DNA from: Muribaculaceae bacterium
Lineage (GTDB): Bacteria; Bacteroidota; Bacteroidia; Bacteroidales; Muribaculaceae
Reading direction: 5' to 3'
DNA: 32,923 bases
Assembly (NCBI GenBank): GCA_017483645.1
Contig: JAFUWD010000066.1
Span: forward strand, 1-32,923
Under the pieces are notes generated by a model. That model did no database searches. It was not told where the DNA came from and saw only the letters and a program-made list of their open reading frames with translations. Below are positions 14,512-31,341 of this stretch, piece by piece. The stretch's first letter is position 1. Each line of letters begins with the position of its first letter. Made by a program: the position numbers and the translations under genes.

Positions 14512-15276
14512 TTACTTGGCTATGATGAGGTCGATGCCCCGTTCCTCGAGGGCCATGACATCCTTGGGCGACACGCCGGCGTCGGTGATGATGGTGTCCA
14601 CGTCCTCCATGTTGGCAATTTTGGCGAATCCGCGTCGCCCGAATTTGCTGCTATCGGCCAGCACGATGGTTTTTTGCGCCGCCTGCATCATCTTCTGGTT
14701 GAGCTCGGCTTCTCTCATGTCGGTGGTGGTGATGCCATATTCGAAGTCGATGCCGTCCACGCCCATGTAAAGTTTGCTGAACGAGCAGTCTTTCAGAATC
14801 GACTCGCTGTATTGGCCCACCACCGAGAGGCTGCTGTGCCTGAGCATGCCTCCGAGCTGGATGATGTCGACCGACTCATTTTGGCTCAGGATTTCGCTCA
14901 CCGGCAGCGACGCGCTCACCACGGTGAGCCGGTGCAGAGGCACGATGCTCCTGGCCAGGGCGTGCACGGTGCTCCCCGACGCGATGATGATGGAGTCGTC
15001 GGTGTTGATGAGCTGTGCCGCCACGCGCCCGATGGCCCGTTTTTCCTCGGTGGCGAGTTTCTCTTTCTCGCTCACGGCCCGGTTGTTGATGTAGGGATTG
15101 ATGAGGATGGCTTTTCCGTGGCTGCGATAGAGCTTGTCCTGCTTTTCGAGCTCGGTGAGGTCTTTGCGGATTGTGACAGACGACACATTGAGCAGGTTCA
15201 CCAAGTCGGAAACCTGGATGGAGCCATGCTTCATGAGCAGTTCCATGATGGTGTTGTGCCGCGATTCTTTGGTCAT
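14512..15276 (-). CDS. glpR: DeoR/GlpR family transcriptional regulator
   Basis: The 254-residue protein is a standard-length DeoR-family repressor. An N-terminal winged helix-turn-helix (about residues 6-57, with VSDLVNLLNVSSVTIRKDLTELE) is followed by the DeoR C-terminal sugar-phosphate sensor domain (IIIASGSTVHALARSI and VLADSSKFGRRGFAKIANM). Family members bind phosphorylated intermediates and derepress nearby catabolic genes. It is divergent from glpABC across 526 nt, so control of that operon by G3P is the natural inference. The gene symbol is by context; the ligand is not visible in the sequence. Confidence 0.85.
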   Translation of the reverse strand: MTKESRHNTIMELLMKHGSIQVSDLVNLLNVSSVTIRKDLTELEKQDKLYRSHGKAILINPYINNRAVSEKEKLATEEKRAIGRVAAQLINTDDSIIIASGSTVHALARSIVPLHRLTVVSASLPVSEILSQNESVDIIQLGGMLRHSSLSVVGQYSESILKDCSFSKLYMGVDGIDFEYGITTTDMREAELNQKMMQAAQKTIVLADSSKFGRRGFAKIANMEDVDTIITDAGVSPKDVMALEERGIDLIIAK

Positions 15277-15313
15277 GGTTTTGAGTTTTTAAATAATAGC
15301 TTATAAATCGATA

Positions 15314-15802: not shown

Positions 15803-17428
15803 ATGAACAAAATATACAGCACTCACTACGATGTGATTGTGATTGGTGGTGGAGCCACAGGAGCCGGCACGGCGCGTGATTGCGCGTTGCGTGGGCTGAA
15901 AGTTCTTTTGGTGGAGCGTAACGACTTCACTAATGGCGCCACGGGTCGCAATCACGGATTGCTCCATAGCGGTGCGCGCTATGCCGTGACCGACGGCGAG
16001 AGCGCCACGGAGTGCATCAAGGAGAATATGATTCTGAGGCGCATTGCACGCCATTGTGTGGAAGAAACTGACGGCTTGTTCATTACTCTCCCCGAGGATG
16101 ATTTGGCCTATCAATCGACTTTTGTGGAGGCCTGTCGCAAGGCCGGCATCCGGGCCGACGTGCTCGACCCCGCCGAGGCTCGTCGACTGGAACCTGCAGT
16201 GAATCCCACGCTGATAGGTGCCGTGCGCGTGCCCGATGCCTCGATTGACCCGTTCCGCTTGACGATGGCCAATGTGTACGATGCGCGGTTGCATGGCGCT
16301 CACTGCCTCACATATCATGAGGTGGAAGGATTGATTATCAATCAAAACCGTGTGGAAGGGGTGAAGTTGCTGAACAAGTTCACCGGCGAGCGTGCTGAAG
16401 TCCGTGGCCATATCACCATCAATGCTGCCGGCATTTGGGGGCAGCGCATCGCCTCGATGGCGGGTGCCAAAATCAACATGTTCCCAGCCAAGGGCGCATT
16501 GCTCATTTTTGGTCACCGTGTGAACAACATGGTGATTAACCGCTGCCGCAAGCCGGCCAATGCCGACATTCTGGTTCCCGACGATGCCGTGTGTGTGATA
16601 GGCACCACCAGCGACCGCGTGCCTGTGGAGACCGTCGACGATATGCGTGTCACCGACGAGGAGGTGCAGGTGTTGCTCACCGAGGGCGAGAAACTTGCTC
16701 CTGCGTTGGCCACAACACGCATCTTGAGGGCTTATGCCGGTGTCAGGCCGTTGGTGGCCTCTGACGATGATCCGAGCGGCCGAAGCATCAGCCGTGGCAT
16801 TGTTTGCCTTGACCATGAGAGCCGCGACGGTATCGGGGGCTTCATTACCATCACCGGTGGAAAGATGATGACCTATCGCCTGATGGCCGAAGAAGTGACC
16901 AATATGGCATGTCGCAAACTTGGCCGTGACGTGGCTTGCACCACCGCCGAGACGCCGCTGCCTGGTTCGGAACCGCAACAAGAAAAGAGTATAGAGAAAA
17001 CAATAAGTTTTGCCAGTCGGGCGGCACAGGGCCGCCATGGCGCGCTTGCCGACGAAATCAAGGCCGACCGCCCCTCGGACCGCGCGTTGGTGTGCGAATG
17101 TGAGGGCGTGAGTGTGGCCGAGGTGCGCTATGCCGTGGAGAAGCTGCATGTTCACAATTTGGTGAACCTGCGTCGCCGCACCCGCGTGGGCATGGGCACC
17201 TGTCAGGGCAAGTTGTGCGCTTGCCGGGCCGCGTCGCTGCTCGGACGCTTCGAGGGAGACCCCGAACGGGCCAAACAGCAACTGGCAGGCTTTTTAGATG
17301 AGCGATGGAAGGGCGTGAAACCTGTGGCATGGGGTAGCACCCTGCGTGAAGCCCAACTCACCGCAACAATCTATCAGGGATTATGTGGCATTGACCATGC
17401 CGTGACACGAAAGGAGGGAGAGCAATGA
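15803..17428 (+). CDS. glpA: Anaerobic glycerol-3-phosphate dehydrogenase subunit A
   Basis: The 541-residue flavoprotein starts with a Rossmann FAD motif (VIVIGGGATGAG, residues about 12-22) and the DAO-type fold of G3P dehydrogenases, including GATGRNHGLLHSGARY. Its C-terminal extension carries a BFD-like [2Fe-2S] domain with Cys431, Cys433, Cys467 and Cys472 (CEC...CQGKLC), which is what distinguishes GlpA from aerobic GlpD. GlpA is the catalytic subunit that oxidises sn-glycerol-3-phosphate to dihydroxyacetone phosphate. Its stop overlaps the glpB start by 4 bp. The length matches the E. coli enzyme. Confidence 0.96.
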   Translation: MNKIYSTHYDVIVIGGGATGAGTARDCALRGLKVLLVERNDFTNGATGRNHGLLHSGARYAVTDGESATECIKENMILRRIARHCVEETDGLFITLPEDDLAYQSTFVEACRKAGIRADVLDPAEARRLEPAVNPTLIGAVRVPDASIDPFRLTMANVYDARLHGAHCLTYHEVEGLIINQNRVEGVKLLNKFTGERAEVRGHITINAAGIWGQRIASMAGAKINMFPAKGALLIFGHRVNNMVINRCRKPANADILVPDDAVCVIGTTSDRVPVETVDDMRVTDEEVQVLLTEGEKLAPALATTRILRAYAGVRPLVASDDDPSGRSISRGIVCLDHESRDGIGGFITITGGKMMTYRLMAEEVTNMACRKLGRDVACTTAETPLPGSEPQQEKSIEKTISFASRAAQGRHGALADEIKADRPSDRALVCECEGVSVAEVRYAVEKLHVHNLVNLRRRTRVGMGTCQGKLCACRAASLLGRFEGDPERAKQQLAGFLDERWKGVKPVAWGSTLREAQLTATIYQGLCGIDHAVTRKEGEQ

Positions 17429-18666
17429 GATACGACACCGTGATTATGGGAGGTGGCCTGAGTGGCCTGATGTGCGGTATTGCCTTGTGCAAGGCCGGCC
17501 AGCGTGTGGCGATTGTTACCAGCGGACAAAGCTCGCTTCACTTCAACGGAGGCTCCTTGGAACTATTGGGCTACGTTGACGGACAGCCCGTGACTCATCC
17601 CCTTGAAAGTATCAACCAATTACCTGCCGGACATCCTTATCAGAAGTTAGGCGCCGAGCGCATTGCCGCTTTGGCTCATGAAGCGGCCCTCGTGCTTGCT
17701 GATGCCGGTCTGCACACCACAGGCAACGCCAATGAGAACCATTGCCGCATCAGTCCCATGGGGGTGATGCTTCCCGCTTGGCTCACGCTCGAAGGCTATG
17801 TGGCGCTTCCCATGGGCAAGGACTGCCCGTGGCGTCGTGTGCTGATGGTGAACGTGGAGGGTTATCTTGATTTTCCCGTGGATTTTGTGGTTTCGGGCTT
17901 GCGTAAGCAGGGGCTTGACGTGGTGGTGGCCGATGTGGTGACCGACGAGCTCGAGCAGCGCCGTCACACCCCCTCGGAAATGCGTGCCACACAGTTGGCC
18001 AAGGTGCTGTCGACCCGCGTCGCCACCGAGCATCTGGCCGATGCCATCAATGTGGCGGCAGTCGATGTCGACGCCATCTTGTTGCCCGCTATCATCGGTC
18101 TGACCGACGACTCACTCGAGCGACTGCGCCAGCTGGTGAAACTGCCGTTGCATCTGGTGGCCACCCTGCCTCCAAGCGTGGCCGGCACCCGCATGCAGGC
18201 GCAGCTCCGCCATTACTTCCAGATGCTGGGCGGCACCTATCTGTTGGGCGATACTGTCACTTGCGCTTCCTTCAACGGAGATGCCGTGGCAAGCGTTGAA
18301 ACCGAAAAATTGGGCGATATGCCCCTGCGTGCCACACACTTTGTGTTGGCCACCGGCTCGTTCATGAGCAAAGGGCTTGCGGCCAACTTTGAGCGAGTTT
18401 ATGAGCCCGTAATGAACCTTGATGTGGATGCCGATGGCTCTCGCAGCGAGTGGACCCGTTACGATGTGCTTGAGCCTCAGCCCTATATGACTTATGGTGT
18501 GGCCACGACGGCCGATTTCCACGTTGTAAAAGGCGGCAAGCCCGTGCCCAATGTCTTTGCCATTGGCAGTGTGCTGAGTGGCCACGATGCCGTGAAGAAT
18601 CACGACGGCACCGGTGTGTCGGCACTCACCGGCTTGGCGGTGGCTCATAACATTTTGGGTAAATGA
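17425..18666 (+). CDS. glpB: Anaerobic glycerol-3-phosphate dehydrogenase subunit B
   Basis: The 413-residue protein begins with a nucleotide-binding GGGLSG motif (residues 9-14). It matches GlpB in layout, including SSLHFNGGSLELLG near the N-terminus and the C-terminal NVFAIGSVLSGHD segment before a GTGVSALTG flavin-domain end. In the E. coli enzyme, GlpB is the FMN-containing subunit that passes electrons from GlpA to GlpC. The 4-bp overlap with glpA indicates tight coupling. A 62-nt gap follows before glpC. Confidence 0.94.
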   Translation: MRYDTVIMGGGLSGLMCGIALCKAGQRVAIVTSGQSSLHFNGGSLELLGYVDGQPVTHPLESINQLPAGHPYQKLGAERIAALAHEAALVLADAGLHTTGNANENHCRISPMGVMLPAWLTLEGYVALPMGKDCPWRRVLMVNVEGYLDFPVDFVVSGLRKQGLDVVVADVVTDELEQRRHTPSEMRATQLAKVLSTRVATEHLADAINVAAVDVDAILLPAIIGLTDDSLERLRQLVKLPLHLVATLPPSVAGTRMQAQLRHYFQMLGGTYLLGDTVTCASFNGDAVASVETEKLGDMPLRATHFVLATGSFMSKGLAANFERVYEPVMNLDVDADGSRSEWTRYDVLEPQPYMTYGVATTADFHVVKGGKPVPNVFAIGSVLSGHDAVKNHDGTGVSALTGLAVAHNILGK

Positions 18667-18728
18667 CGGCCATCAACAGAGAATATTAAGATTACACGAT
18701 AAGATTTGATTTATGATTTTTTAGGGTT

Positions 18729-19982
18729 ATGGCAGAAGAAATGCAATTAACCAACACCAGCGCAAACAATTTTGAGCAATGCCTCAAGTGCTCGATTTGC
18801 ACGGTGTATTGTCCAGTGTCGGCAGTAAACACCGCCTATCCCGGCCCCAAGCAGGCCGGCCCCGACGGTGAGCGCTACCGCCTAAAGGACCCCGATTTCT
18901 ATCAGGAAACACTGAAGCTGTGCTTGAACTGCAAGCGTTGTGAGGTGGCCTGCCCCAGTGGCGTGCGCATTGGTGACATCATTCAGCAGGCCCGCATGAA
19001 TCACTTCACCCACCGCCCCAAGTTGCGCGACGTGATGCTCGCTAATACCGACTTTGTGGGCTCAATGGTAACGCTGGTGGCACCCATCACCAATTTTACG
19101 CTGGGTCTGAAACCCGTGAAAGTGGTGATGGATGCTGCCCTGGCCATCGACAAACATCGCACATTCCCGGCTTATTCGGGCACCAAATTTGAAAGATGGT
19201 ATAAGAAGCATGCCGCTGCCGAGCAAGATACTTTTGCAAAGCATGTAAGCTACTTCCACGGTTGCTATGTGAACTACAATTTTCCCAAGCTGGGCCAAGA
19301 TTTGGTGAAACTGATGAATGCCGTGGGCTACGGTGTGCGGCTGCTTGAGAAAGAAAAGTGCTGCGGCGTGGCGCTGATGAGCAATGGCCTCTACAAGCAG
19401 GCCCGTCGCCAGGGTGAGACCAATATGGCCTCGATGCGCCTTGCCATTGAGCGCGGCGAGGAAGTGCTCACCACCAGCAGCACCTGCACCTTCACCATGC
19501 GTGATGAATATGCCCACCTGCTGGGCATTGCCAACGATGATGTGCGCGCTCACCTGACGCTGGCCACCCGTTTCCTCTACCGTCTCATCGACGAGGGCAG
19601 TGTGCAGCTGGCTTTCCGTCCCGACTACAAAAGGCGCTTGGCCTATCACACCGCTTGCCACATGCAGCGCATGGGATGGGCCATCTACAGCATTGAGTTG
19701 CTGCGCATGATTCCGGGGTTGGAACTTGACGTGCTGGAGAGCCAGTGCTGCGGCATAGCGGGCACCTATGGTTTCAAGAAAGAGAACTACGCCACATCAC
19801 AAGCCATCGGCGAAAGTTTGTTCCAATCCATAGCCGACGCCAATGTTGAGGCTGTGGTGACCGATTGTGAAACCTGCAAGTGGCAGATTGAGATGTCGAC
19901 GGGTGTTCCGGTGGAGAATCCCATCAGTGTTCTCGCCGACGCTCTCGATGTGGAAAAAACCAAAAAATTAAATGGTTTGTAA
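18729..19982 (+). CDS. glpC: Anaerobic glycerol-3-phosphate dehydrogenase subunit C (Fe-S, membrane-anchoring)
   Basis: The 417-residue protein has two 4Fe-4S motifs (Cys18, 21, 24, 28 and Cys65, 68, 71, 75) and then two CCG cysteine-rich domains, each ending in a CCG signature (EKCCGVALMS and SQCCGIAGTYG). This is the GlpC architecture. GlpC links GlpAB to the membrane and passes electrons to menaquinone, supporting anaerobic respiration, for example to fumarate. It is third in the operon. The palindrome that forms the left inverted repeat begins 20 nt after its stop. Confidence 0.95.
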   Translation: MAEEMQLTNTSANNFEQCLKCSICTVYCPVSAVNTAYPGPKQAGPDGERYRLKDPDFYQETLKLCLNCKRCEVACPSGVRIGDIIQQARMNHFTHRPKLRDVMLANTDFVGSMVTLVAPITNFTLGLKPVKVVMDAALAIDKHRTFPAYSGTKFERWYKKHAAAEQDTFAKHVSYFHGCYVNYNFPKLGQDLVKLMNAVGYGVRLLEKEKCCGVALMSNGLYKQARRQGETNMASMRLAIERGEEVLTTSSTCTFTMRDEYAHLLGIANDDVRAHLTLATRFLYRLIDEGSVQLAFRPDYKRRLAYHTACHMQRMGWAIYSIELLRMIPGLELDVLESQCCGIAGTYGFKKENYATSQAIGESLFQSIADANVEAVVTDCETCKWQIEMSTGVPVENPISVLADALDVEKTKKLNGL

Positions 19983-20001
19983 AAAAAATTACATGGCATA
20001 T

Positions 20002-20030
20002 TTTTTCCTTAAAGGGCACGCTTAAGGAAA
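20002..20030 (+). repeat. Left inverted repeat, candidate recombination site (IR-L)
   Basis: The core (20004-20030) is TTTCCTTAA, spacer AGGGCACGC, TTAAGGAAA: two perfect 9-bp arms around an asymmetric 9-nt spacer. A 29-bp block including this core is found in reverse complement at 28041-28069 with no mismatch, and similarity stops abruptly outside. Arms plus a directional spacer are typical of tyrosine-recombinase crossover sites, and a tyrosine recombinase gene starts 155 nt away. Confidence 0.88.
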
Positions 20031-20045
20031 CCGTGTAAAGGGTTG

Positions 20046-20087
20046 TGCCGACCTCGTATCCAAGAGAAAGCGAAGTCGGCATTTTTT
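20046..20087 (+). terminator. Rho-independent terminator after glpC
   Basis: TGCCGAC (20046-20052) pairs with GTCGGCA (20075-20081), plus three inner pairs after one mismatch, followed by six T residues (20082-20087). It would end the glpABC transcript. It lies just inside the segment bounded by the inverted repeats, so it would move away if that segment inverted. Confidence 0.85.
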
Positions 20088-20185
20088 GTGTCATTATGCT
20101 AAATTTATCCTTCGAAACGACACACAATTTTTTGTTGTCATCGGCCGTTAGTTCAGAAAACAAACCATCTAAACGATTCGAAAAA

Positions 20186-21124
20186 ATGAAGAATACTTTT
20201 GAGATTTGGGCCAGAAAATGGAGTACGCATAAAAAGACTTTTGTCAAGTCATCGACCCATGCCATGTACATTTTTATTATAGAAAAACATCTCATACCGT
20301 TTTTCAATGCTCGTGCCACCATCATGGAGAGCAACGTGCAGGAATTTGTGGACCGTCAGCTCGAAGCTGGCCACAGTGTGAAGACGGTGAAAGGCATGGT
20401 GACGGTGCTGCGCATGATTGCGGTCTACGCCAGCAAGCAGAAAGGATGCTTGCCTCCTGTTGGATGGGAGTTGCATTACAATGCCGGTGCGCCTCACCGC
20501 AGGACGACCGAGAATGTGCTTAATGTGAAAGACTACAAGGCTCTGGTGAACCATGTGAGCAAGCATGTCACTTGCTTGAACCTGGGCGTGCTTCTCGCAC
20601 TCACCACAGGGATGCGAATTGGCGAGTTGTGTGCTCTGCAGTGGCAAGACATCAATGTGAAACATGGCGTGGTTGACGTCTATAAAACATTGGAACGCAT
20701 CTATCTTGTCGATGGTGACCACCGCGGCACCCAAATCATCATTAACACGGCCAAAACGCCGGCTTCGGTGCGGCAAATTCCGTTACCGAAGCAAACCCTT
20801 AGTGTGGTCAAGACGTTGTGCAAGGATGCAAACCCCGAATGCTATATGCTCACCAACTCAAGCAAACCCACCGAACCCCGATCGTTTCGCAATCATTTCA
20901 ACCGCATGGCGCGGGAATTAGGATTGACTGGAGTCACTTTTCACGGATTGCGTCACAGTTTTGCCACCCGATGCATAGAAAGCCGTTGCGACTACAAAAC
21001 GCTGAGCACCATCTTGGGGCACTCGTCGGTGAGTGTCACGATGAATTACTACGTCCATCCCGACAATAATCAGAAAAAGAAGTGCATCGAGAATATGCTG
21101 GGTCACGTGCTACCCAAGACATAG
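20186..21124 (+). CDS. Tyrosine recombinase (phage-integrase family), candidate DNA invertase
   Basis: The ATG at 20186 gives 312 residues; an upstream GTG frame would run through the terminator and is rejected. The N-terminal SAM-like core-binding domain covers about residues 1-100. The catalytic domain holds the full active set: Arg144 (TGMRIGE), Lys190 (TAKTPAS), His253 and Arg256 (HGLRHSFATR), His279 (LGHSS) and the nucleophile Tyr289 (NYYVHP). These enzymes cut and rejoin DNA through a covalent phosphotyrosine. It lies alone between the left inverted repeat and the convergent transporter unit, with no other phage or element genes. This supports a local inversion role rather than element integration. 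Target specificity is inferred. Confidence 0.9.
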   Translation: MKNTFEIWARKWSTHKKTFVKSSTHAMYIFIIEKHLIPFFNARATIMESNVQEFVDRQLEAGHSVKTVKGMVTVLRMIAVYASKQKGCLPPVGWELHYNAGAPHRRTTENVLNVKDYKALVNHVSKHVTCLNLGVLLALTTGMRIGELCALQWQDINVKHGVVDVYKTLERIYLVDGDHRGTQIIINTAKTPASVRQIPLPKQTLSVVKTLCKDANPECYMLTNSSKPTEPRSFRNHFNRMARELGLTGVTFHGLRHSFATRCIESRCDYKTLSTILGHSSVSVTMNYYVHPDNNQKKKCIENMLGHVLPKT

Positions 21125-21133
21125 AACGCCGGC

Positions 21134-21832
21134 TTATTGCTGCTCAGTGAGCAGATAATCGGCGTAAATGTTAAGAAACATCGTGGGGTCGCGCTCCACC
21201 ATGTTACAGTTGGTCTTCATTTTGAACTGGCTCTTCAGATAGCGCACCAAACGGGCTGTCTTGCCACCCTTGAGATGGTGATAGAGCGCTCCCATGTCCA
21301 TATGGCCGTCGGTGACAATGGGATAAACCACGGGGTTTCCTTTGAACATGACGCCATACTGCACCGCCTCATAGGTTTCGTTGTCGCCCACAGGTGCCTT
21401 GAGCACCACTGGGCACTTGAAAATGGTGGCAGTGGTGTCACCAGCCACCACACACATGAACTGATAAGTGAATTTCTCGAGCAGTTGCATGAGTTTCTCA
21501 TGCTCGAACTGCGCCACTTTGCATGCGCGCCAGTGTGCGTCGGTCACCGAGGGACTGTCGAAATCGATGGCCATGATGTCATTGAGTGTATACTCGTCTT
21601 TTTCTTTCTTATTGCTGTCGATTTTCGGCACAATGGATAGTTTGTAGTTTTGCCGTCCACCGTAATAAATACCCCGGAACCAATGGTCATAGAGATAGCC
21701 GCTCACCTTCGAACCATCGTAGAATGTGAGAGTCACATGGTCGGCCTCGGTGATGTGCTTCTTTTTAGCCTGGAGCGTAACGGGCAACATAAGTGCCACA
21801 CTCATCATCAGTGCAATCAAAATCTTGTTCAT
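21134..21832 (-). CDS. Secreted protein of unknown function
   Basis: The 232-residue product has a clean signal peptide (MNKILIALMMSVALMLPVTLQA). The mature part begins with a short beta-rich segment (VTLTFYDGSKVSGYLYDHW) and continues as a mixed alpha/beta domain with a helical, basic C-terminal third. I do not recognise the family. It is the last gene of the six-gene minus-strand unit and ends 9 bp from the recombinase stop, without a visible terminator between the convergent genes. Confidence 0.78.
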   Translation of the reverse strand: MNKILIALMMSVALMLPVTLQAKKKHITEADHVTLTFYDGSKVSGYLYDHWFRGIYYGGRQNYKLSIVPKIDSNKKEKDEYTLNDIMAIDFDSPSVTDAHWRACKVAQFEHEKLMQLLEKFTYQFMCVVAGDTTATIFKCPVVLKAPVGDNETYEAVQYGVMFKGNPVVYPIVTDGHMDMGALYHHLKGGKTARLVRYLKSQFKMKTNCNMVERDPTMFLNIYADYLLTEQQ

Positions 21833-21909
21833 GGCATCAAAAATTTAAAAACCCAGGGAGTACCTCAACCCATAAGAAATACCCCCCGGGAGAAAATCAA
21901 GATGATAGA

Positions 21910-22875
21910 TTATTTAACTTTTTCATAGATGTAGAGCTCGTGCACCTCGCCGGTGTAACCCTCGTCGGTGAACGGACCTTGCGACATACCCAGGATGATT
22001 TGAGTGCCACGGTTGTTGAGCACCACCAGGTCATCGTTGGTGGGGTCAATGGCCAGACCCTCGATTTCACCTGCGCGCTTGAAGTCGGTCATCTCACGGA
22101 AGAGCTCAACCTTGCCAGCCTTGGCGCCACCAGCGATTTTGCCGGTACGTTTCACGACCTTGCCGTTCTCGAGCTTCACGCTGAATGGGGTGTCTTTCAC
22201 AACCTCGGTGCCGTTGACCAGACCGGTGTAAGGCAGCTCGGTGATATCAGCCATGTAGATGTTGTCGGCAATGTGGAAAGTCGATTCACCATCATCGGCA
22301 GTGAAGAGAATCTTGCCGTCGCAGATAAAGATACCTTGGCACCAGTAGGGAGTGGGGCGGCACTGCATCTTAGTATAGTACTTGCCAGTTTCCAGGTCGT
22401 AGCAGTAGACATAACGGCTGTCCACCCAGTCACTGATCCAGACCATGTTGCGCTCGCGGTCTACAGCCAGACCAGAGCACTCCACTCGTCCACTCTCAGG
22501 AGCCCAAGGCAGTGAGCGTTTGTACTTCAGCGTCTCAGCATCAAAGATGTCAATCATGATGTTGTAGCCACGGCCATACTCAAACTTCTCATTACCGGTG
22601 TAGATTTCACCTTTCCACACGTCGATGTCACCAAAGTGGTTGGCGAGTTCGGGCTTTTGGAAGGGCTTGTCATTCTTCATCACCATCTGACCGTCCTTGG
22701 TGTACTTGTAAAGCACGCGCGTGTCGGACACATAGTAGTACTTGTCGTCAATAGCGACACCCTGGCGACCAGCAACGGGGATGATTTTTTTCAAACGATA
22801 CTGAGTACCGAGGTGCTGTGCGCTCACGGTCATGCCGAGGCAGCAAACAGCCAGAAGAACTAATAATTTTTTCAT
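21910..22875 (-). CDS. Secreted beta-propeller protein (NHL / phytase-like style)
   Basis: The ATG at 22875 gives 321 residues with a signal peptide (MKKLLVLLAVCCLGMTVSAQ). Repeated blade-like units follow, such as GVAIDDKYYYVSD, CSGLAVDRERNMVWISDW and EIEGLAIDPTNDDLVVLNN. These fit a six-bladed propeller of the NHL/SMP-30 kind; the EGLAIDP stretch also recalls esterase-like phytase-like domains. No definite catalytic site could be assigned. The position between the porin and the last unknown gene suggests an extracytoplasmic partner in phosphate-ester use. Confidence 0.75.
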   Translation of the reverse strand: MKKLLVLLAVCCLGMTVSAQHLGTQYRLKKIIPVAGRQGVAIDDKYYYVSDTRVLYKYTKDGQMVMKNDKPFQKPELANHFGDIDVWKGEIYTGNEKFEYGRGYNIMIDIFDAETLKYKRSLPWAPESGRVECSGLAVDRERNMVWISDWVDSRYVYCYDLETGKYYTKMQCRPTPYWCQGIFICDGKILFTADDGESTFHIADNIYMADITELPYTGLVNGTEVVKDTPFSVKLENGKVVKRTGKIAGGAKAGKVELFREMTDFKRAGEIEGLAIDPTNDDLVVLNNRGTQIILGMSQGPFTDEGYTGEVHELYIYEKVK

Positions 22876-22928
22876 TTTGTTTTGTTTTAAAAGGTTGTTA
22901 AACAAAAGGTTTAATATAGCTAACCAAT

Positions 22929-24110
22929 TTAGAATTTAAACAAACCCATGATTTGGATTTGGTCGCTGGTGTTGTAACCCAAAGCCTCCTTGGCATCGCT
23001 CTTGTACATGAAGTGACCCCAGTTGACCTGAATCTTCACGTTCTTGAACAGCTGATAGGTGCAGCCCAGCAACAGACGGTCGTAGTTGTTGGCAGTGGTC
23101 TTGTTAATGTCGTCCTTGTACATGTCCCAGCGAACCATGGGCAGGAACTTGCCGGCATGGTAGCCTGCGAACACATAAGCGCCCAGCTCATCGACGTACT
23201 TCACATCGTTCTTCTTCGACTTCATCAAGCCAATCTCAGCACGCAGGTCGAGACCGTTGGGATTGTTGTACCATGCGCCGGCCACAAAGCGGGTCATCGG
23301 CATGTACTTCGACACGGGGGCACCGTCGGCATCGAAGCCAACACCTGTTCCACCGGCCAGAGCGGTAGGATTGTACTCGCCCCAGTTGAAGGTGGCCTTC
23401 ACATTGAAGTTCTTGAAGGGACGGATGGTAGCGCTCACATAGAGGTCTTTGGTTTTGTTACGGTCATCCTTGCAGGGGATTGAACCGTTGGTCAAAGCCA
23501 CGTCATAGTGGAAGTAGCGGAAACCCTTGCCACTGTCACCGATGTCACCCATGAACATCAAGCCCAAGTCACGACCGTAATCAACCAGGTTGTACTCATA
23601 GGGGTTGCGGCAAGCCATACGGTAAACAATGTTCGAGAAGTCGACGGTCTCGAGGGTAGCCGGCGAGATGTCGTAGTTCTCATAACCCAGCGGGGTGTAG
23701 AATTGACCGGCGCGAATCTTGAACTCGGGAATAATCTTCCAAGTTGCAAAAGCGTCCATCACTTGGAGGTTCTTCTGACCGTTGCCGTTGGTCGATCCAG
23801 CGATTCCGTTGAAGGCCTCGATTTGCAGACGGAAGTCCACTTTCTCACCCACCTTGCCATCCATAATCAGACGCAGGCGTTTAGCCTGGAACGAAGACGA
23901 CGAAGCGTTTTTGTTGTGAGTCCAGTTCCAACCGGTTTGCAGATAGCCCGAAATTTTGGGCATGTTTGCCACAATCTTATCGAGCGTGGTTTCCGATTGA
24001 GGAGCAGGTGCAGCCACGGGTTCGGGTGCAGCCTCTGGAGCAGCTGCGTCGGCGGCATAAAGAGCCGGGCACATAGCTGCAATCATTGCTAATGTCAATA
24101 ATTTTTTCAT
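22929..24110 (-). CDS. Phosphate-selective porin O/P family outer-membrane protein
   Basis: The 393-residue product has a signal peptide (MKKLLTLAMIAAMCPALYA) and an Ala/Pro-rich linker. A beta barrel follows with the features of OprO/OprP-like porins (PF07396), including ISGYLQTGWNW, FQAKRLRLIMDGKVG, IRAGQFYTPLGYENY and a terminal aromatic strand ending GLFKF. In this locus it probably lets G3P or other phosphate esters cross the outer membrane; the exact substrate is inferred. It lies 68 nt after the HAD gene and 53 nt before the propeller gene. Confidence 0.85.
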   Translation of the reverse strand: MKKLLTLAMIAAMCPALYAADAAAPEAAPEPVAAPAPQSETTLDKIVANMPKISGYLQTGWNWTHNKNASSSSFQAKRLRLIMDGKVGEKVDFRLQIEAFNGIAGSTNGNGQKNLQVMDAFATWKIIPEFKIRAGQFYTPLGYENYDISPATLETVDFSNIVYRMACRNPYEYNLVDYGRDLGLMFMGDIGDSGKGFRYFHYDVALTNGSIPCKDDRNKTKDLYVSATIRPFKNFNVKATFNWGEYNPTALAGGTGVGFDADGAPVSKYMPMTRFVAGAWYNNPNGLDLRAEIGLMKSKKNDVKYVDELGAYVFAGYHAGKFLPMVRWDMYKDDINKTTANNYDRLLLGCTYQLFKNVKIQVNWGHFMYKSDAKEALGYNTSDQIQIMGLFKF

Positions 24111-24178
24111 AATAAAAATAATTGAATTGATAATAAATATGGGTTAATAAATCTATCACATATCTTTTTAAATTGGGG

Positions 24179-25045
24179 TCAGCGGTGAGCCCGTTCCAGC
24201 AGACGACCGAATTCCTCAACATTGAGCGCCGTGATGTCGGGCTGCGGGTCACTGGCAAGTGCGGTTTCAAGAGTAGTCTCGCCGCTGAGAACCAGCACAC
24301 CCAGCGAGCCGGCATTCTGTGCGGTGGCCACGTCGGTGTAGATACGGTCGCCACACATGGCAATCTCGTTGCTCTGCAGTCCGCGCATGTCGCGGATGCA
24401 ATAGAGCATGTTGGGATTGGGCTTGCCGATGACCACGTCGGGCTTGCGCTTGCATGCTCCCTCAATGGCCTTGCAGATGGAGCCACAATCCACCAGAATC
24501 ACCTCCTGGTCGGTGGGACAGACCCAGTCGGGATTGGTGGCGATGTAAGGAATCTCGCGCTTCGACGCCCACCATGTGGCTCGGCACAGGCGCTTGTACT
24601 CCAGTGTGGTGTCGAATGCCACCACCACAATGTCGGGCCGGTCGGCCGGGTCGTCGGCCGTGAGTTCAAACCCCGCTTTGACAAATTCCTCCTGCATGCT
24701 GGGCGTGCCCAGCGTGAACAGACGCTTGGCCTCGGGATAGTGCAGGCGAATGTAGTCGATGGTAGCAAGCGACGAGGTGTACATCTGGTCGTCAGTGGCA
24801 TGGATTCCCAGCCTTTCCAATTTCAGCAAATAGTCCTTGTGGCTGCGAGTTGGATTATTGGTAAGGAACGAATAAGTGATTCCCAGGCTCGTGAGCGTGT
24901 CAAGGAAATGGTGCGTATAGGGGAACAGCGTGGATCCCATGTAGATGGTTCCGTCCATGTCGAGCGCCACATGCTTGATGCGTGCGCAGGCCTCGAGCAA
25001 CTGCAGCTCGCTCATGGGCGACATGTATTTATCAAATTTTTCCAT
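24179..25045 (-). CDS. HAD-IIA family phosphatase (NagD-like)
   Basis: The 288-residue protein has the HAD motifs in order: DMDGT with Asp29 and Asp31, a threonine motif in FLTNNPTRS, Lys in GKPNPNMLY, and GDRIYTD for the metal site. The cap region between motifs II and III is of type IIA. Relatives include NagD and eukaryotic glycerol-3-phosphate/phosphoglycolate phosphatase. Between transporter and porin genes, hydrolysis of G3P to glycerol and phosphate is an attractive role, but the family is broad in substrate. No signal peptide is seen, so it is cytoplasmic. Confidence 0.88.
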   Translation of the reverse strand: MEKFDKYMSPMSELQLLEACARIKHVALDMDGTIYMGSTLFPYTHHFLDTLTSLGITYSFLTNNPTRSHKDYLLKLERLGIHATDDQMYTSSLATIDYIRLHYPEAKRLFTLGTPSMQEEFVKAGFELTADDPADRPDIVVVAFDTTLEYKRLCRATWWASKREIPYIATNPDWVCPTDQEVILVDCGSICKAIEGACKRKPDVVIGKPNPNMLYCIRDMRGLQSNEIAMCGDRIYTDVATAQNAGSLGVLVLSGETTLETALASDPQPDITALNVEEFGRLLERAHR

Positions 25046-25090
25046 TTTAATGAAGTCTCAATGTTAATTCATGTGTGGGAGAGAGATTGA

Positions 25091-26578
25091 TCAATCTTCA
25101 TCATAGTTAATGGAATTGGCACGAGCGTAGCCGTCGCGAGGAGCCTGCCACATCGAGATGAGGACAAACATGCCAATGATGGCCACGATGATGATAGCCT
25201 CGAACACAGCCGTCCAGCCAAAGTAGTCGGCCACATAACCAACAAGCAATCCGGCCAAGCCCGAGCCCAGATAACCGAGGATACCGGCGATGCCATTAGC
25301 ACGTGCACTTGCTTCCTTGGTTGCCTGGTTGCCCAGCTCAATGCCGATGAGGGCTTGCGGGCCGTAGATGAAGAAACCTGCGCCCACCAGCACCAGTGCT
25401 GTGACAGTAATACCAGCCGTTTGTGGAAGGAAACGGAAAATGGTCATGAACAGGGCTGCTCCGGCCATGCACACCACGCACATGCGGTGACCTTTTCCCT
25501 TGAACAGGTGGTCGGTGGCCCATCCGGCAAACAGCGTGCCTACAATACCGGCTATTTCGAATGCTGCAGTCGTCCAGGTCGCACTCTTGATATCAAGTCC
25601 GCGAGCCTCGGTGAGGAACTTGGGTCCCCAATCGAGAACGCCCATGCGCACCACATAAACAAACAAGTTGGCCACGCAGAAGGTCCATACCCAGCGATTG
25701 CGCCACACCATCACTTTCTCAAATTTGCGGCGGTTCTTGGCGCTCATGTTGTCTTTGAGACCTCCCAGACCGGTGTCGGGCAGGTCGGGCAATCCAGCGT
25801 CCTTGGGCTCATCGCGCAGGCCGACAAAGATAAAGATGGCACCTGCCACAGCCAGGCATGCAGGCACAAAGAAGCACCACTTCCAGGCCCCCACATGCTG
25901 TGCGTAGACAAGGGCTTGCGATGTGGCGTCGGCCACCTTGTTGTTAGTCAGGTTTTCTGTGATTCGCGCCACCACATCGGCATTAGCGCTCATGTCGGTG
26001 CCCAGGGTGCCCATCAGATAGCCGCACACAACAACGGCCAACGCGGCACCAATCGAGTGCGACGTGTTCCAAATCGACATTTTGGTTGCAAGCTCGCTGG
26101 GATGAATCCAGTGAGGCAAGATACGGGCGCAGGGGGGATAGCCCATGCCCTGGAAATACTGGTTCAGGATGATAGTCACACCCATTACCAGAATCAGAAT
26201 GCTGATGAAATCAGGACCTTGGTCAACGCCAGTGATGAGCGAACTGAGATTGGCCCCGAAGCCAAACGTGAAATTGGCCAGCGCGCACAGCAGAAGCCCC
26301 ACCGCCATGACAATGCGTCCCTTTACCTTGTCGACTAGATAACCGTTGGCAAAGCGTGAGAATCCATAAGTTATCGACCCGAAGAAGATTATCCAGCCGA
26401 AACTCTTGTTGGTGATTCCATACTCGGCCGTCATGCCCGGCATGGCCACCGAGAAGTTCTTCCTCACAAAGTAGAAAATGGCATACCCAATCATGGTGAC
26501 GAGAATAGTCTTCATCTGCCATGAGAGGAATTTTTTCTTTTGCTCACCCAGTGAGCTGTAAACATCTTGCTTAGTCAT
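25091..26578 (-). CDS. OPA-family (MFS) organophosphate:phosphate antiporter, divergent copy
   Basis: The 495-residue protein has about 12 membrane helices and the OPA signatures: GYAIFYFVRKNFSVAMP (Arg39), QGMGYPPCARILPHW, WNTSHSIGA and VVRMGVLDWGPKFL. Arg and His residues that bind substrate in GlpT (Arg45, His165 and Arg269 in E. coli) have counterparts. It is clearly different from the two near-twin GlpT genes next to it and may import another sugar or glycerol phosphate. An extra loop of about 30 residues lies after helix 6. It lies 26 nt after glpT copy 2, in the same operon. Confidence 0.88.
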   Translation of the reverse strand: MTKQDVYSSLGEQKKKFLSWQMKTILVTMIGYAIFYFVRKNFSVAMPGMTAEYGITNKSFGWIIFFGSITYGFSRFANGYLVDKVKGRIVMAVGLLLCALANFTFGFGANLSSLITGVDQGPDFISILILVMGVTIILNQYFQGMGYPPCARILPHWIHPSELATKMSIWNTSHSIGAALAVVVCGYLMGTLGTDMSANADVVARITENLTNNKVADATSQALVYAQHVGAWKWCFFVPACLAVAGAIFIFVGLRDEPKDAGLPDLPDTGLGGLKDNMSAKNRRKFEKVMVWRNRWVWTFCVANLFVYVVRMGVLDWGPKFLTEARGLDIKSATWTTAAFEIAGIVGTLFAGWATDHLFKGKGHRMCVVCMAGAALFMTIFRFLPQTAGITVTALVLVGAGFFIYGPQALIGIELGNQATKEASARANGIAGILGYLGSGLAGLLVGYVADYFGWTAVFEAIIIVAIIGMFVLISMWQAPRDGYARANSINYDED

Positions 26579-26604
26579 ATTGATTAGTGGATTTTAAATG
26601 TCCT

Positions 26605-27987
26605 TTATTTCCTGTTCTTGACCAGATACTGCTCCTCCTTGTAGGTGAGCGCCATGAACACGATGGCCAACAAGCAGGCACCCATCAGCAGGTAGAAGGT
26701 CCATTCCCAGCCGGCATTCTCGGCCACATAGCCAATCACGATATTGGCCAGGATGGCCGTGCCCAGCACGTAACCCATGAAGCCCGTGAGGCCGGCTGCA
26801 GTGCCTGCCGCGTTTTTCGGGGCCAGGTCAAGAGCCTGCACGCCGATAAGCATCACCGGGCCGTAAATCAGGAAACCGATGGCTATCAGGCAGCCAATCA
26901 CCACACTCAGATTGTCCAAATTCATCATGTAGACCCAGATGGCCACAATCAGCAGTGCCATGAACAAGATGGTGGGCAGGGCGCGGCGTCCCTGGAACAC
27001 CTTGTCGCTGAGCCAGCCACAAATGATGGTGCCGGGGATGGCCGCGATCTCGTAAGCGAAATATGCCCAGCCGGCATCCTTCAAGTTCACACCTTTCTCG
27101 GTGAGGATGGTGGGAGCCCAGTCGAGGCATCCGTAGCGCACCATGTAGACGAAAGCGTTGGCCAGGGCGATGTACCACAGGAATTTGTTGGAGAGCACAA
27201 TCTTGAAAATCTCCCCGGTGGAGAGCACCTGCTCGGCCTTTTCGCTATAGTTTTTCGACGCCGACCCACTCCATTTCTCAATGGCCGGCAGGCCACATGA
27301 CTGCGGGGTGTCGCGAATCATCAGGTAAGCAATCACAGCCACCAGAATGGCCACTGCGGCGGGGAAGGCATAGGTGCCGATGAGGAAGTACATCTTCTCG
27401 TCGGCGCCGTAGAACCACGAGCCGAACCACACGGCGCCATAGGCCGCCATGGGGCCCACCAACGCGCCGCCCACGTTATGGGCGCAGTTCCAGAACGACA
27501 TCCACGTGCCGCGCTCCTTGATAGAGAACCAGTGCGTCATCACGCGTCCGCACGGAGGCCAGCCCATGCCGTTGAACCAGCCCACCAGGAAGTTGAGTGC
27601 TGCCATTATCACGATGGCCAGCGTCTTGTTCTGAGCGCCGATCCACTGAATGGGCACTATCATGAACAGCATCGAAAGTGCAGCGCACACAAGGCCCAGA
27701 GGTAGAAACCGGCGGGCGTCGCTACGGTCGCTGATGCTGGCCATCAAGAACTTCGAGAAGCCATAAGCAATGGCGTTCATCGACAGCACAATACCCAGCT
27801 CACCCTTTTCGAAGCCGAATGGGGCGAGGGCGGGGATGGCCATCGAGAAGTTTTTACGAACAATATAAAATCCGGCATATCCAATGAAAATGCCGATAAA
27901 AACCTGCCAGCGCAGTCGTTTGTACCTAACGTCGGCCTCGGCACCCGTTTGCTCGGGCTTATATGCCGGTGGAGTTAAAAATGCCAT
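26605..27987 (-). CDS. glpT: Glycerol-3-phosphate transporter GlpT, copy inside the invertible segment
   Basis: The 460-residue OPA-family antiporter closely follows GlpT: GFYIVRKNFSMAIP (Arg44), NGMGWPPCGRVMTHWFS, WNCAHNVGG (His170), YMVRYGCLDWAPT and FLIYGPVMLIGVQALDLAPK. It exchanges external G3P for cytosolic phosphate. It is the first gene of the minus-strand six-gene unit, with its start 53 nt from the right inverted repeat. About four in five residues match the glpT copy on the other side of the repeat, which reads the opposite way. No consensus promoter was found for it in the present orientation. Confidence 0.93.
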   Translation of the reverse strand: MAFLTPPAYKPEQTGAEADVRYKRLRWQVFIGIFIGYAGFYIVRKNFSMAIPALAPFGFEKGELGIVLSMNAIAYGFSKFLMASISDRSDARRFLPLGLVCAALSMLFMIVPIQWIGAQNKTLAIVIMAALNFLVGWFNGMGWPPCGRVMTHWFSIKERGTWMSFWNCAHNVGGALVGPMAAYGAVWFGSWFYGADEKMYFLIGTYAFPAAVAILVAVIAYLMIRDTPQSCGLPAIEKWSGSASKNYSEKAEQVLSTGEIFKIVLSNKFLWYIALANAFVYMVRYGCLDWAPTILTEKGVNLKDAGWAYFAYEIAAIPGTIICGWLSDKVFQGRRALPTILFMALLIVAIWVYMMNLDNLSVVIGCLIAIGFLIYGPVMLIGVQALDLAPKNAAGTAAGLTGFMGYVLGTAILANIVIGYVAENAGWEWTFYLLMGACLLAIVFMALTYKEEQYLVKNRK

Positions 27988-28040
27988 GATAGTTCAATTT
28001 TTATGCGATATTTGTTAAAGTTTCTTTAATTCTTCATTTT

Positions 28041-28069
28041 TTTCCTTAAGCGTGCCCTTTAAGGAAAAA
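28041..28069 (-). repeat. Right inverted repeat, candidate recombination site (IR-R)
   Basis: Exact reverse complement of 20002-20030, including the asymmetric spacer, which reads GCGTGCCCT here. It sits in the 276-nt gap between the divergent glpT copies, 53 nt from one start and 194 nt from the other. Its right arm overlaps the region just upstream of the -7 box of the + strand copy. Confidence 0.88.
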
Positions 28070-28077
28070 TAAATCAC

Positions 28078-28085
28078 TATTTTTG
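28078..28085 (+). promoter_or_regulatory. Putative -7 box of the glpT-glpQ-porin unit
   Basis: TATTTTTG matches TAnnTTTG. The -33 position would fall inside the right inverted repeat and is not TTTG, so the promoter may need an activator or use the palindrome. The leader to the ATG at 28264 would be about 172 nt and contains an inverted pair TTTCGTT (28119-28125) / AACGAAA (28158-28164), candidate repressor half-sites. Confidence 0.5.
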
Positions 28086-28263
28086 CGCCATGATTGTTTT
28101 GTTTGGAAATTTATTTAGTTTCGTTATGATAATTTTTTGGGTTTTCAAAAGAGCGGAAACGAAACTTGTGGTTTTCAAAATCAATCAAAAATTGTAACAA
28201 GACTAATAGTTAAAGAATATTATCATTTACTATAAACCTTCAATTAACAATTAAAACCAATTT

Positions 28264-29682
28264 ATGGCAAGTTTTTTAGCCCCTCCGGCCTTTAAACCCG
28301 AACAGACGGGTCCCGAGGCCGACGCGAAGTACAAGCGACTTCGCTGGCAAGTGTTTATCGGCATCTTTATTGGATATGCCGGTTTCTACCTGGTGAGAAA
28401 GAATTTATCGATGGCCATTCCGATGCTTGAGCCCTTTGGCTTCACAAAGGGCGAGTTGGGCACCGCGCTGGCCATGAATGCTGTGGCCTATGGCGTTTCC
28501 AAGTTTGTCATGGCGAGCATCAGCGACCGCAGCAATGCTCGTCGTTTCCTGCCCTTAGGACTGATTCTGTCGGCTGTGGCTATGATGTTCATGATTGTAC
28601 CCATCCATAGCGAGTACATTCGTGAGAACAAGGGTCTTGCAATCACCTTGATGGGCCTGTTCAACTTTTTGGTGGGCTGGTTCCAAGGAATGGGCTGGCC
28701 TCCGTGCGGCCGTGTGATGACGCGCTGGTTCTCCATCAAGGAGCGTGGCACATGGATGAGTGTGTGGAATTGTGCCCACAACGTGGGCGGTGCAATGGTT
28801 GGCCCCATGGCTGCCTATGGCGCACTCTGGTTCGGTTCGTGGTTCTATGGCGCCGACGAGAAGATGTATTTTCTCATCGGCACTTATGCCTTCCCGGCTG
28901 CAGTGGCTGTGCTGATAGCCATCATCGCCTATTCGATGATTCGCGACACCCCTCAGTCGTGCGGCTTGCAGTCGATTGAGAAGTGGAGCGGCTCGGCTTC
29001 AAAGAACTACGATGAGAAGAAGAGCGAGCAAGCTCTGAGCGTGAAGGAAATCTTCCGCACGGTGCTCACCAACAAGTTCTTGTGGTACATTGCACTTGCC
29101 AACTCCTTTATTTACATGGTGCGTTACGGCTGTCTTGACTGGGCTCCCACCATCTTGAGCAATCAGGGTGTGGATATCAAGAGTGCCGGTTGGGCCTATT
29201 TTGCCTATGAGATTGCCGCCATTCCCGGCACGCTGTTCTGCGGCTGGCTCAGCGACAAGGTGTTCAATGGCCGTCGCGCCCTTCCCACGATGCTGTTCAT
29301 GGCATTGATTATCATTGCCATCGTGGTCTACTGGCAGAACATGACCAACCTGACGGTGGTGATTTGCTGCCTGATAGCCATCGGCTTCCTGATTTACGGC
29401 CCGGTGATGTTGATTGGTGTGCAGGCTCTCGACCTGGCTCCGAAAAATGCCGCCGGAACCGCTGCCGGCCTGACGGGCTTCATGGGCTATGTGCTGGGTA
29501 CTGCCATTCTGGCCAACTCGGTGCTGGGTTACGTTGCCGACCACACTGGCGGTTGGGATGTTCCCTTCATCCTGCTGATAGTGGGTTGTGTGCTGGCCAT
29601 TGTGTTCATGGGCATGACCTATAAAGAAGAGCAATATCTCGTTGCCGACCGCAAGGGTGAAAGCGTGAAGAAAGAGAAATAA
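28264..29682 (+). CDS. glpT: Glycerol-3-phosphate transporter GlpT, copy outside the invertible segment
   Basis: The 472-residue protein has the full GlpT signature set: FYLVRKNLSMAIP (Arg45), QGMGWPPCGRVMTRWFS, WNCAHNVGG (His172), YMVRYGCLDWAPT and GFLIYGPVMLIGVQALD. It is predicted to be a 12-helix inner-membrane antiporter of G3P for phosphate. The mature sequence is close to the copy at 26605-27987, apart from small differences around residue 115 and a longer, basic tail. It leads a + strand unit with the GDPD lipoprotein (36 nt away) and a porin, which fits coupled hydrolysis and uptake. Confidence 0.94.
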   Translation: MASFLAPPAFKPEQTGPEADAKYKRLRWQVFIGIFIGYAGFYLVRKNLSMAIPMLEPFGFTKGELGTALAMNAVAYGVSKFVMASISDRSNARRFLPLGLILSAVAMMFMIVPIHSEYIRENKGLAITLMGLFNFLVGWFQGMGWPPCGRVMTRWFSIKERGTWMSVWNCAHNVGGAMVGPMAAYGALWFGSWFYGADEKMYFLIGTYAFPAAVAVLIAIIAYSMIRDTPQSCGLQSIEKWSGSASKNYDEKKSEQALSVKEIFRTVLTNKFLWYIALANSFIYMVRYGCLDWAPTILSNQGVDIKSAGWAYFAYEIAAIPGTLFCGWLSDKVFNGRRALPTMLFMALIIIAIVVYWQNMTNLTVVICCLIAIGFLIYGPVMLIGVQALDLAPKNAAGTAAGLTGFMGYVLGTAILANSVLGYVADHTGGWDVPFILLIVGCVLAIVFMGMTYKEEQYLVADRKGESVKKEK

Positions 29683-29718
29683 ACTAATTATACTATTCAT
29701 TTTAAACAATTGACATTT

Positions 29719-31341
29719 ATGTTAAAAAATCTCGTTAGAGTAGGCCTGTTGAGCACCGCTATGCTCCTTGCCTTTAGTTCTTGTGAAAAAGAACAGCAGT
29801 TTACCAATGAGAAACTTGATGCCAAGCGTGTTGATCTGCAAGTGCTGAACGCCGACCTGGCAAAAGTTCGTGACTATGTGCCCCTCTACGCAGTGATTGC
29901 CCACCGCGGTTCCACGTTCTGGGCTCCCGAAGAGACAGAGGCATCGTGGCGCTGGGCCCGTGAAATGGGTGCCGACTATCTGGAGAGCGATGTGCAGTGC
30001 ACCAAGGACGGTATCGTGCTTGCCAACCACGATGAGAACCTGAAGCGCACCACCAACATCGAGAATGTGTTCAGTGAGACCGTTCCGCCGAGCCGTGCGG
30101 ACTTCTACATGAGCCTGGGCTTTAGCCGCCAAGACGCCGAGGAGCAATATGGCCGCGATGTGGCCGCCTTCCGCCCGTTCTACACGCTGAGCTATTACTA
30201 TGCCGAGCTGCTGATGCTGGATGCCGGCAGTTGGTTCAACGAGAGCAGTCTGGAGCAGGCACGTCCCGCTTTCTCAGCTACCGAGAACGGCCGTTTTGAG
30301 AATGGTAGGATTGTGTATAGCAACGGTCTGTACATCAGTGCTATCCAAGACCAAATCGCTTATGCTCAGGGCAAACGCTTGGTGCGTGACGCCGAGGGTC
30401 GCCGCGTACTTACCTATAAAATCAAGGACGAGTACAAGGGCATGACGCTGGCGCAAATCTACGACGCCATCAAGGCCAAGGGCCAGTACAACGCCAAGTA
30501 TATGGATTTCCTGGAGTATGACTTCGCCCACGCTTATGAGGCTGACCCCGAGGACACCGGCAACCGCCCTGGCATCTATGTTGAGTTCAAGGAGAGCTGG
30601 CTTAACCCCGGCAACATGGAGCAGCGTGTATATGACGTGCTGGCCGAGCAGGGTTGGAACATCATCACCAATGACCCGGGCGAGCAACCCTTCTACAAGA
30701 ATGGCAAGGTTAACGTGGGTAACACTCGTGGCCGCGTGATTCTGCAAACCTTCTCATTCGATGCACTGCGTCGAGCCAACGACGTTTTCAAGGGCCGTAT
30801 CCCCATGTGCTATCTGTTGTGGATCAGCGATCCGGCTTATGCCACCGATATCGCTTACGACACCCCCACCGGCTATGCAGCCTTCATCAAATGGGCACAG
30901 GACAATGGCGCCCACATCATTGGCCCGGCTATCAGCGGTGCCCCCAACAACTATCCCGAGATGAACGCCCCCTGGCAGGCCTATATGATTCGCAAGGCCG
31001 GAATGATTAACCATCCTTATTCGTTCGACTCATGGGCACAGATGACCAAGTACATGGGCTACTACAACTACAATTGGGAAACTGAGTTCGACGACCTGCT
31101 GCGTCTGACCATTCCTCCCACGGACTATACCGTAGAAGGGTATCCCAGCAGTGTGCCCGTCTACATGGACGGTTTCTTCACCAACCGCACCGAGATGTCG
31201 CTGCGCTACATGATTGAGAACGGTTTCCGCGGCAACCCCGCTCTTCCCAACCCGTTCCATGCCGGACAAAAATATGACAACTCTCAGGCCAACGTCGTCG
31301 TTCCCGATGCCGTAGCCACACTGAAACGCCTGGGTTACTAA
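29719..31341 (+). CDS. glpQ: Glycerophosphodiester phosphodiesterase lipoprotein with large insertion
   Basis: The ATG at 29719 gives 540 residues. The lipobox ends AFSSC (Cys22), so it is an anchored lipoprotein. The GDPD catalytic core is clear: His62-Arg63 in AVIAHRGS, Glu89 and Asp91 in YLESDVQ, and His104 in LANHDENLKRTTN. Then an atypical stretch of about 170 residues (starting near ENVFSE) separates this part from the second half (IYVEFKESW, VILQTFSF and YLLWISD). The enzyme releases G3P from glycerophosphodiesters such as glycerophosphocholine. It is longer than the usual 330-360 residues. Context with GlpT and porin supports the role. Confidence 0.9.
   Translation: MLKNLVRVGLLSTAMLLAFSSCEKEQQFTNEKLDAKRVDLQVLNADLAKVRDYVPLYAVIAHRGSTFWAPEETEASWRWAREMGADYLESDVQCTKDGIVLANHDENLKRTTNIENVFSETVPPSRADFYMSLGFSRQDAEEQYGRDVAAFRPFYTLSYYYAELLMLDAGSWFNESSLEQARPAFSATENGRFENGRIVYSNGLYISAIQDQIAYAQGKRLVRDAEGRRVLTYKIKDEYKGMTLAQIYDAIKAKGQYNAKYMDFLEYDFAHAYEADPEDTGNRPGIYVEFKESWLNPGNMEQRVYDVLAEQGWNIITNDPGEQPFYKNGKVNVGNTRGRVILQTFSFDALRRANDVFKGRIPMCYLLWISDPAYATDIAYDTPTGYAAFIKWAQDNGAHIIGPAISGAPNNYPEMNAPWQAYMIRKAGMINHPYSFDSWAQMTKYMGYYNYNWETEFDDLLRLTIPPTDYTVEGYPSSVPVYMDGFFTNRTEMSLRYMIENGFRGNPALPNPFHAGQKYDNSQANVVVPDAVATLKRLGY

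Follow-up and report, generated by a model that had tools for sequence, protein, structure and literature searches.

The stretch of DNA analysed here, referred to as the window, covers positions 1 to 32,923 of contig JAFUWD010000066.1 of a Muribaculaceae bacterium of the gut (assembly GCA_017483645.1), and it carries at its glp locus an 8-kb segment that we consider highly likely to be a self-encoded, site-specific invertible element. The genes glpA, glpB and glpC (15803..19982, plus strand), each exceeding its NCBIfam cutoff, lie ahead of a 29-bp palindromic site (site 1, 20002..20030, plus strand) that has glpC on one side and a tyrosine recombinase gene on the other. An exact inverted copy of it (site 2, 28041..28069, minus strand) lies between two GlpT-like transporter genes, glpTa inside the segment and glpTb outside. 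We refer to glpTa together with a major facilitator superfamily (MFS) transporter gene, a HAD phosphatase gene, an O/P-type porin gene and two further genes as module M1, and to glpTb with a glycerophosphodiester phosphodiesterase (GDPD) gene and a porin-like gene as module M2.

An inverted-repeat search of the window gave 41 inverted pairs, the three longest of which (I1-I3) are the two glpT paralogs. The two sites are complementary at 29/29 bp (100%) with a spacing of 8010 nt, whereas every other pair among the 25 longest is at most 94% complementary; by our own arithmetic, assuming uniform bases, about 2e-9 exact 29-bp inverted pairs would be expected by chance in 32.9 kb. Each site consists of 9-bp arms, TTTCCTTAA and TTAAGGAAA, around an asymmetric 9-nt spacer, AGGGCACGC, that is the same at 9/9 positions in both copies. 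Both the mismatch-free repeat and this architecture of palindromic arms and conserved spacer had been described in a first-pass annotation of the DNA, and both hold. That annotation had also named a motif widespread in the genome, with varying spacers, as evidence that would speak against it; the 27-bp core of the site has only the two copies in the window's own genome assembly (G000; 2.11 Mb, 101 contigs, 79% complete) with up to 3 mismatches allowed, and the window spacers are identical.

The recombinase gene (20186..21124, plus strand) encodes 312 amino acids and matches Pfam PF00589 (Phage_integrase) with an E-value of 9e-30. Residues R144, K190, H253, R256, H279 and Y289, which we take to be the catalytic R-K-H-R-H-Y set of tyrosine recombinases, are unvarying in all filled rows of a 55-row alignment from which L033, L126, L127 and L128 were omitted. 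With the Pfam match and the catalytic residues in place, the claim of a complete tyrosine recombinase gene within the segment stands. Acting on the two 27-29 bp sites, this enzyme would invert the 8 kb between them. The window would then represent a detached state (state A), with the order glpABC, site, terminator-like hairpin, recombinase, M1 facing back toward glpABC, site and M2, and the attached state (state B) would read glpABC, site and M1, then recombinase, site and M2.

Segment orientation in congeneric species

Comparison with other genomes of the genus revealed the segment in the opposite orientation. In G012 the order is glpC, site, glpTa, and the breakpoint falls at the site. Window positions 20989-28073 align to 10459-17541 of the G012 locus (L033) with 93.6% identity, whereas window positions 17540-20030 align to 17510-20000 of the same locus with 84.6% identity and in the opposite sense; the two blocks overlap at L033 17510-17541, which corresponds to the site and a few bases. 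The other end of the G012 segment has a 44-bp glpTb remnant, eight bases and then the beginning of a recombinase copy whose middle is missing, and a GDPD match was not found in this genome (E<=1e-60). These features fit a locus that was in state B at both ends and from which site 2, the bulk of M2 and a portion of the recombinase would later have been lost.

The other predicted junction is found in G112 (locus L074), where the order is porin-like gene, GDPD, glpTb, site and recombinase; the site has one arm mismatch and a different spacer. The first-pass annotation had predicted these alternative junctions and had proposed comparing orientation among related genomes, and between species both junctions and both orientations are indeed present, with glpC-site-glpTa in G012 and glpTb-site-recombinase in G112. 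In a third genome, G013, glpC is followed by a decayed site and then by glpTa, MFS and HAD genes up to the contig end, and no comparable recombinase was found in the assembly (83% complete), which gave a single weak match of a different type (E 2.6e-6). By their sequences, the window with its intact locus, G012 with its broken recombinase and G013 with its decayed site form a natural series. The flanks of the site also follow their genes. On the glpTa side 46/58 columns match, compared to 27/62 in a wrong-flank control, the glpTb-side flank shared with G112 matches at 134/214 columns and the glpC-side flank at 15/22; judged from these alignments, the glpTa and glpTb flanks each stay with their own gene.

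When the sites themselves were compared by hand from the printed sequences, the arms match those of the window at 18/18 positions in G012 and 17/18 in G112, and the spacers at 7/9 in G012 and 5/9 in G112 (in the glpTb-to-recombinase reading). Because the arms are kept, the spacers are species-specific and the spacer pair of the window is identical, a recombination site appears to fit these data better than an operator. Palindromes with no more than one mismatch occur in three genomes of the genus, the window, G012 and G112, and each lies at the glp locus beside the recombinase or its remnant, while the four remaining genus matches have two mismatches each. Elsewhere in the family, one-mismatch palindromes were found in G347, G371 and G433, with no recombinase match within the fetched 3 kb, and viral contigs contain two palindromes without a recombinase, glp or hsdS match.

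The gene order in the genus shows how unusual the window is. Both glpC and glpT are found in 66 of the 101 genus genomes (E<=1e-60), and in 61 of these 66, by hand count, the start of a co-oriented glpT comes no more than about 265 bp downstream of glpC. The other five are the window, G022, G030, G063 and G088, with the two genes on separate contigs in G030 and G063. As glpT follows straight after glpC in nearly all of them, the window shows an unusual, detached state. Among 22 mapped loci (L033 and L074 together with 20 picked by hand, a non-random set), glpC is followed by an M2-type glpTb in nine, by glpTa in six and by the second MFS gene in five; G090 is mixed and G112 is without glpC. 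M1 comes after glpC in G077, G062, G089 and G091, where a clean site was not found. The complete arrangement of the window, with M1 and M2 around two sites and a recombinase, is not seen again among the 22 mapped loci.

Recombinase relatives and genes of the locus

NCBIfam returned only sub-cutoff Xer matches for the window recombinase, and Int proteins rank first among solved structures in a sequence comparison (6en0, E 2e-12). In 40/297 family genomes, including its own, the recombinase has a match at E<=1e-30. We examined 58 loci of recombinase homologs and found an HsdS gene beside the recombinase in 15, using a profile built from two HsdS proteins; Pfam assigned Methylase_S to four open reading frames in two of these 15 loci. 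Exact inverted repeats of at least 16 bp across two hsdS reading frames occur in 9/15 (L037, L075, L078, L079, L083, L084, L090, L092 and L093). Given that homologs occur at hsdS loci whose hsdS genes contain inverted repeats, the window recombinase is, on sequence grounds, kin to inversion recombinases. In a quick tree of 57 rows, the window and G112 recombinases pair (support 99; the G112 row has 47% of columns filled) outside a clade of 37 rows (support 81) that contains all 15 hsdS-linked rows, and thus the window recombinase lies outside the hsdS-linked clade. A single distant relative (25%) was found among viral contigs, and the best 10 of 1434 records in a phage collection all match at below 60% identity.

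Several loci of these relatives carry repeats that deserve mention in their own right. Nine loci in the family of the window look like hsdS shufflons and encode a homologous recombinase, among them L078, L083, L084, L090, L092 and L093. Inverted repeats of at least 12 bp near 13 further recombinases (12 without hsdS, plus L113) look chance-like, apart from possible cases at L113 and L080. The first is a 13-bp inverted repeat around the recombinase of Bacteroidales bacterium UBA4360 (L113, 1-1174), with the contig beginning at the outer arm, and the second is an AT-rich 15-bp inverted repeat immediately upstream of a recombinase (L080, 9068-9326) whose neighbours, judged by eye, are MFS transporter-like and TonB-type receptor-like genes. 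An exact 55-bp inverted repeat closely brackets the recombinase of L104 (9317-10842), and the contig stops exactly at the outer arm. At L103 (12646-13033) and L106 (2066-2441), inverted repeats of 18-19 bp lie about 370 bp apart beside related recombinases, and one arm falls close to the 3' end of an adenine methyltransferase-like gene (by eye), possibly an invertible gene end.

Inside the segment, the recombinase gene is followed on the minus strand by two predicted genes without a Pfam match (21134..21832 and 21910..22905, with 92% and 98% identity to their G012 copies), a porin gene of the phosphate-selective O/P type (22929..24110; Pfam PF07396), a HAD-IIA family phosphatase gene (24179..25045; TIGR01460, above cutoff), an MFS transporter gene of organophosphate type by Pfam and NCBIfam (25091..26578; best model PgtP, below cutoff) and glpTa (26605..27987). 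The transporter, porin and phosphatase unit described by the first-pass annotation is therefore present, with the two genes without a Pfam match also inside. Beyond site 2, on the plus strand, are glpTb (28264..29682), the GDPD family gene (29710..31341; Pfam PF03009) and, adjoining it, a gene without a Pfam match that we label porin-like (31389..32717), which follows GDPD in the M2-type loci extending that far. Both GlpT-like proteins fall short of the curated glpT cutoff of TIGR00712 (548 bits for glpTa and 545 for glpTb against 633). The two paralogs are inverted around site 2 (26605-29682), with arms of 290-495 nt that are 75-80% complementary; after inversion the two would form direct repeats and might thereby promote deletions. 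Ahead of glpA lies a DeoR-family regulator gene (14512..15276, minus strand) with NCBIfam matches below cutoff, the best being AgaR. Further away, positions 1186-4749 encode a secreted-type protein of 1187 amino acids which, by eye, has leucine-rich-type repeats and a C-terminal dockerin-like pair.

Two signals near the sites could bear on expression. A terminator-like hairpin followed by a T run lies between site 1 and the recombinase (20045..20087, plus strand; RNA fold -17.3 kcal/mol, z -2.44); it went unreported by a simple terminator scan, and G112 has a hairpin at the same position with a z of -3.46 and without a clear T run. A TATTTTTG box (28078..28085, plus strand) is located upstream of glpTb, just beyond site 2, and again at the same place in G112. 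It is of the TANNTTTG type, a promoter element in Bacteroides, and no such box was found on the minus strand upstream of glpTa. Boxes of this type occur at 0.70 per kb in the window, about 0.2 being expected in the glpTb gap, so the box could be due to chance, and none was found in nine M2-type glpC-glpTb gaps, six of which are only 53-93 bp long. Promoter and terminator scans of the window gave nothing useful above shuffled controls.

The proposed switch and its alternatives

Direct support for an invertible segment comes, in the sequences compared here, from the sites, the recombinase gene, the opposite M1 orientation between species, which breaks at the site, and the presence of the two alternative junctions. 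The window recombinase is probably the inverting enzyme, inversion may be reversible within one population, and the hairpin and promoter-like box hint that orientation could affect expression. In state B, the glpABC transcript would continue into M1. In state A, it would meet the terminator-like hairpin, and M1 would be left without a recognisable promoter, while M2 would retain its own promoter-like box in both states. Inversion would thereby attach or detach the glpTa-MFS-phosphatase-porin module, with M2 constant. The first-pass annotation had the segment controlling G3P uptake, and the inversion of a transporter module is supported, but control of uptake is too strong a claim since a second glpT-like gene remains outside the segment; with glpTb and the GDPD gene just beyond site 2, the logic of the switch is altered. 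A more speculative extension, which we regard as improbable, is that inversion swaps the target of the glpABC transcript between the transporter module in state B and the hairpin-shielded recombinase in state A, so that strong glp induction in state A could extend transcription into the recombinase gene, increase recombinase levels and return the segment to state B, and the operon would gate its own re-attachment.

Several observations weigh against an active inversion switch. Each species is represented by one genome and one state, and a complete state-B locus with two intact sites was not found among the loci compared. The G112 recombinase has 60% identity over 150 amino acids before the contig ends, leaving the locus incomplete, and neither a glpC match nor the M1 MFS gene was found in that assembly (96% complete). 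The recombinase-side flank matches at 103/183 columns, no better than its control (35/59). The palindrome with up to 2 mismatches occurs in 7/101 genus genomes, compared to 20/101 (22 matches) for a backward control, and with up to 1 mismatch in 6/397 family genomes, compared to 15/397 (17 matches); as the control is commoner, such palindromes alone mean little, and the case for the site rests on its position and not on the rarity of the palindrome. Beside 43 recombinase loci, a clean palindrome was found at G112 (L074) only and not at the more distant recombinases; a weak copy lies at L104, and the other matches there, with 2-5 mismatches, were taken as noise. Arm binding by the window recombinase is itself a prediction.

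The single state of each species would also be expected from a one-time ancestral inversion at the sites, now fixed, with a recombinase that this species retains but that has ceased to invert the segment. The broken recombinase of G012 and the decayed site of G013 indicate that locking does occur, but the window has an intact recombinase that retains its catalytic residues, and the sites are identical, spacer included, despite the spacer differences between species, and we judge this explanation unlikely. It is very unlikely that the palindrome is instead the operator of a glp regulator and that the rearrangement between species is unrelated. The site is a palindrome next to glp genes, and the promoter-like box of glpTb adjoins site 2; however, at up to 2 mismatches no glp locus of the genus besides those of the window, G012 and G112 was found to have a copy, the neighbourhoods of the four two-mismatch matches not having been examined, the genome holds two copies only, with the same asymmetric spacer in both, and the inversion breakpoint coincides with the palindrome. 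Recurrence of the site at glp promoters without a recombinase was not found either: G012 keeps it beside a broken recombinase, and in G013, where a comparable recombinase was not found, it has decayed. The distribution of the site, its matching asymmetric spacers and the position of the breakpoint thus all speak against an operator.

A tyrosine recombinase at one end of a repeat-bounded segment would also be found in a mobile element inserted at the locus, with the repeats as its ends. Integration normally leaves direct repeats, however, and here they are inverted; Pfam recognised no other mobility gene among the segment genes, and M1 follows glpC in the four genomes named above in which a clean site was not found. 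With inverted ends and no further mobility gene recognised, we find this reading scarcely credible. Equally hard to credit is an assembly artefact in which two orientations were misjoined in the contig. Inverted repeats of 29 bp may confuse short-k assembly, and several homologous loci stop at contig edges, but the separately assembled G012 and G112 show complementary junctions with the same flanks, and a misassembly at these repeats would itself need both orientations to be possible. An invertible segment remains the reading we prefer.

Comparison with known inversion systems

An inverting glp operon was not found in the open-licence literature on DNA inversion, a partial body of papers, and its elements are known separately. 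A recombinase encoded inside its own invertible segment is known from Hin of Salmonella (PMC5903667), a serine recombinase (PMC3798978) that switches flagellin (PMC11868660); the window shares the recombinase gene within the inverted segment but differs in recombinase type and target. Phase-variable glpK has been described in Mycobacterium tuberculosis (PMC11868660). This is likewise phase variation in glycerol metabolism, but in another gene and organism and by a mechanism other than inversion. The glpK variation reportedly arises by repeat-tract slippage.

Inversion-driven switching of nutrient outer-membrane proteins is also known (PMC5729914, PMC11868660), and there, as proposed here, inverting a large segment places different nutrient-related genes behind a promoter. 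We compare these systems by arrangement; they vary surface proteins, whereas the window would attach or detach a module of cytoplasmic-membrane transporter, phosphatase and porin at glpABC. In hsdS shufflons, PsrA-type tyrosine recombinases act at the cod locus of S. pneumoniae (PMC7096588), and restriction-modification shufflons are described in Bacteroides fragilis (PMC5729914). The likeness lies in a locus-encoded tyrosine recombinase and inversion between inverted repeats, with homologs of the window recombinase beside hsdS as described above; PsrA itself is likened to the window recombinase by description. The segment of the window differs in being a metabolic module without hsdS, made up of transporter, phosphatase and porin genes and the two without a Pfam match, and its sites lie between genes, as 27-29 bp palindromes around a spacer. 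hsdS shufflons change protein specificity, whereas inversion in the window would change gene order relative to a catabolic operon.

Recombinase-driven inversion is therefore already known, and the comparison suggests that its application to a glp metabolic operon would be the new element. The inversion switches described in these sources mainly vary surface structures or restriction specificity; from the present locus it seems that such an operon can likewise be rewired by a related recombinase, leaving glpABC with or without a transporter-phosphatase-porin module behind it, and the window offers exact junctions suited to PCR or read mapping and a compact intergenic site useful for probing the specificity of this recombinase family.

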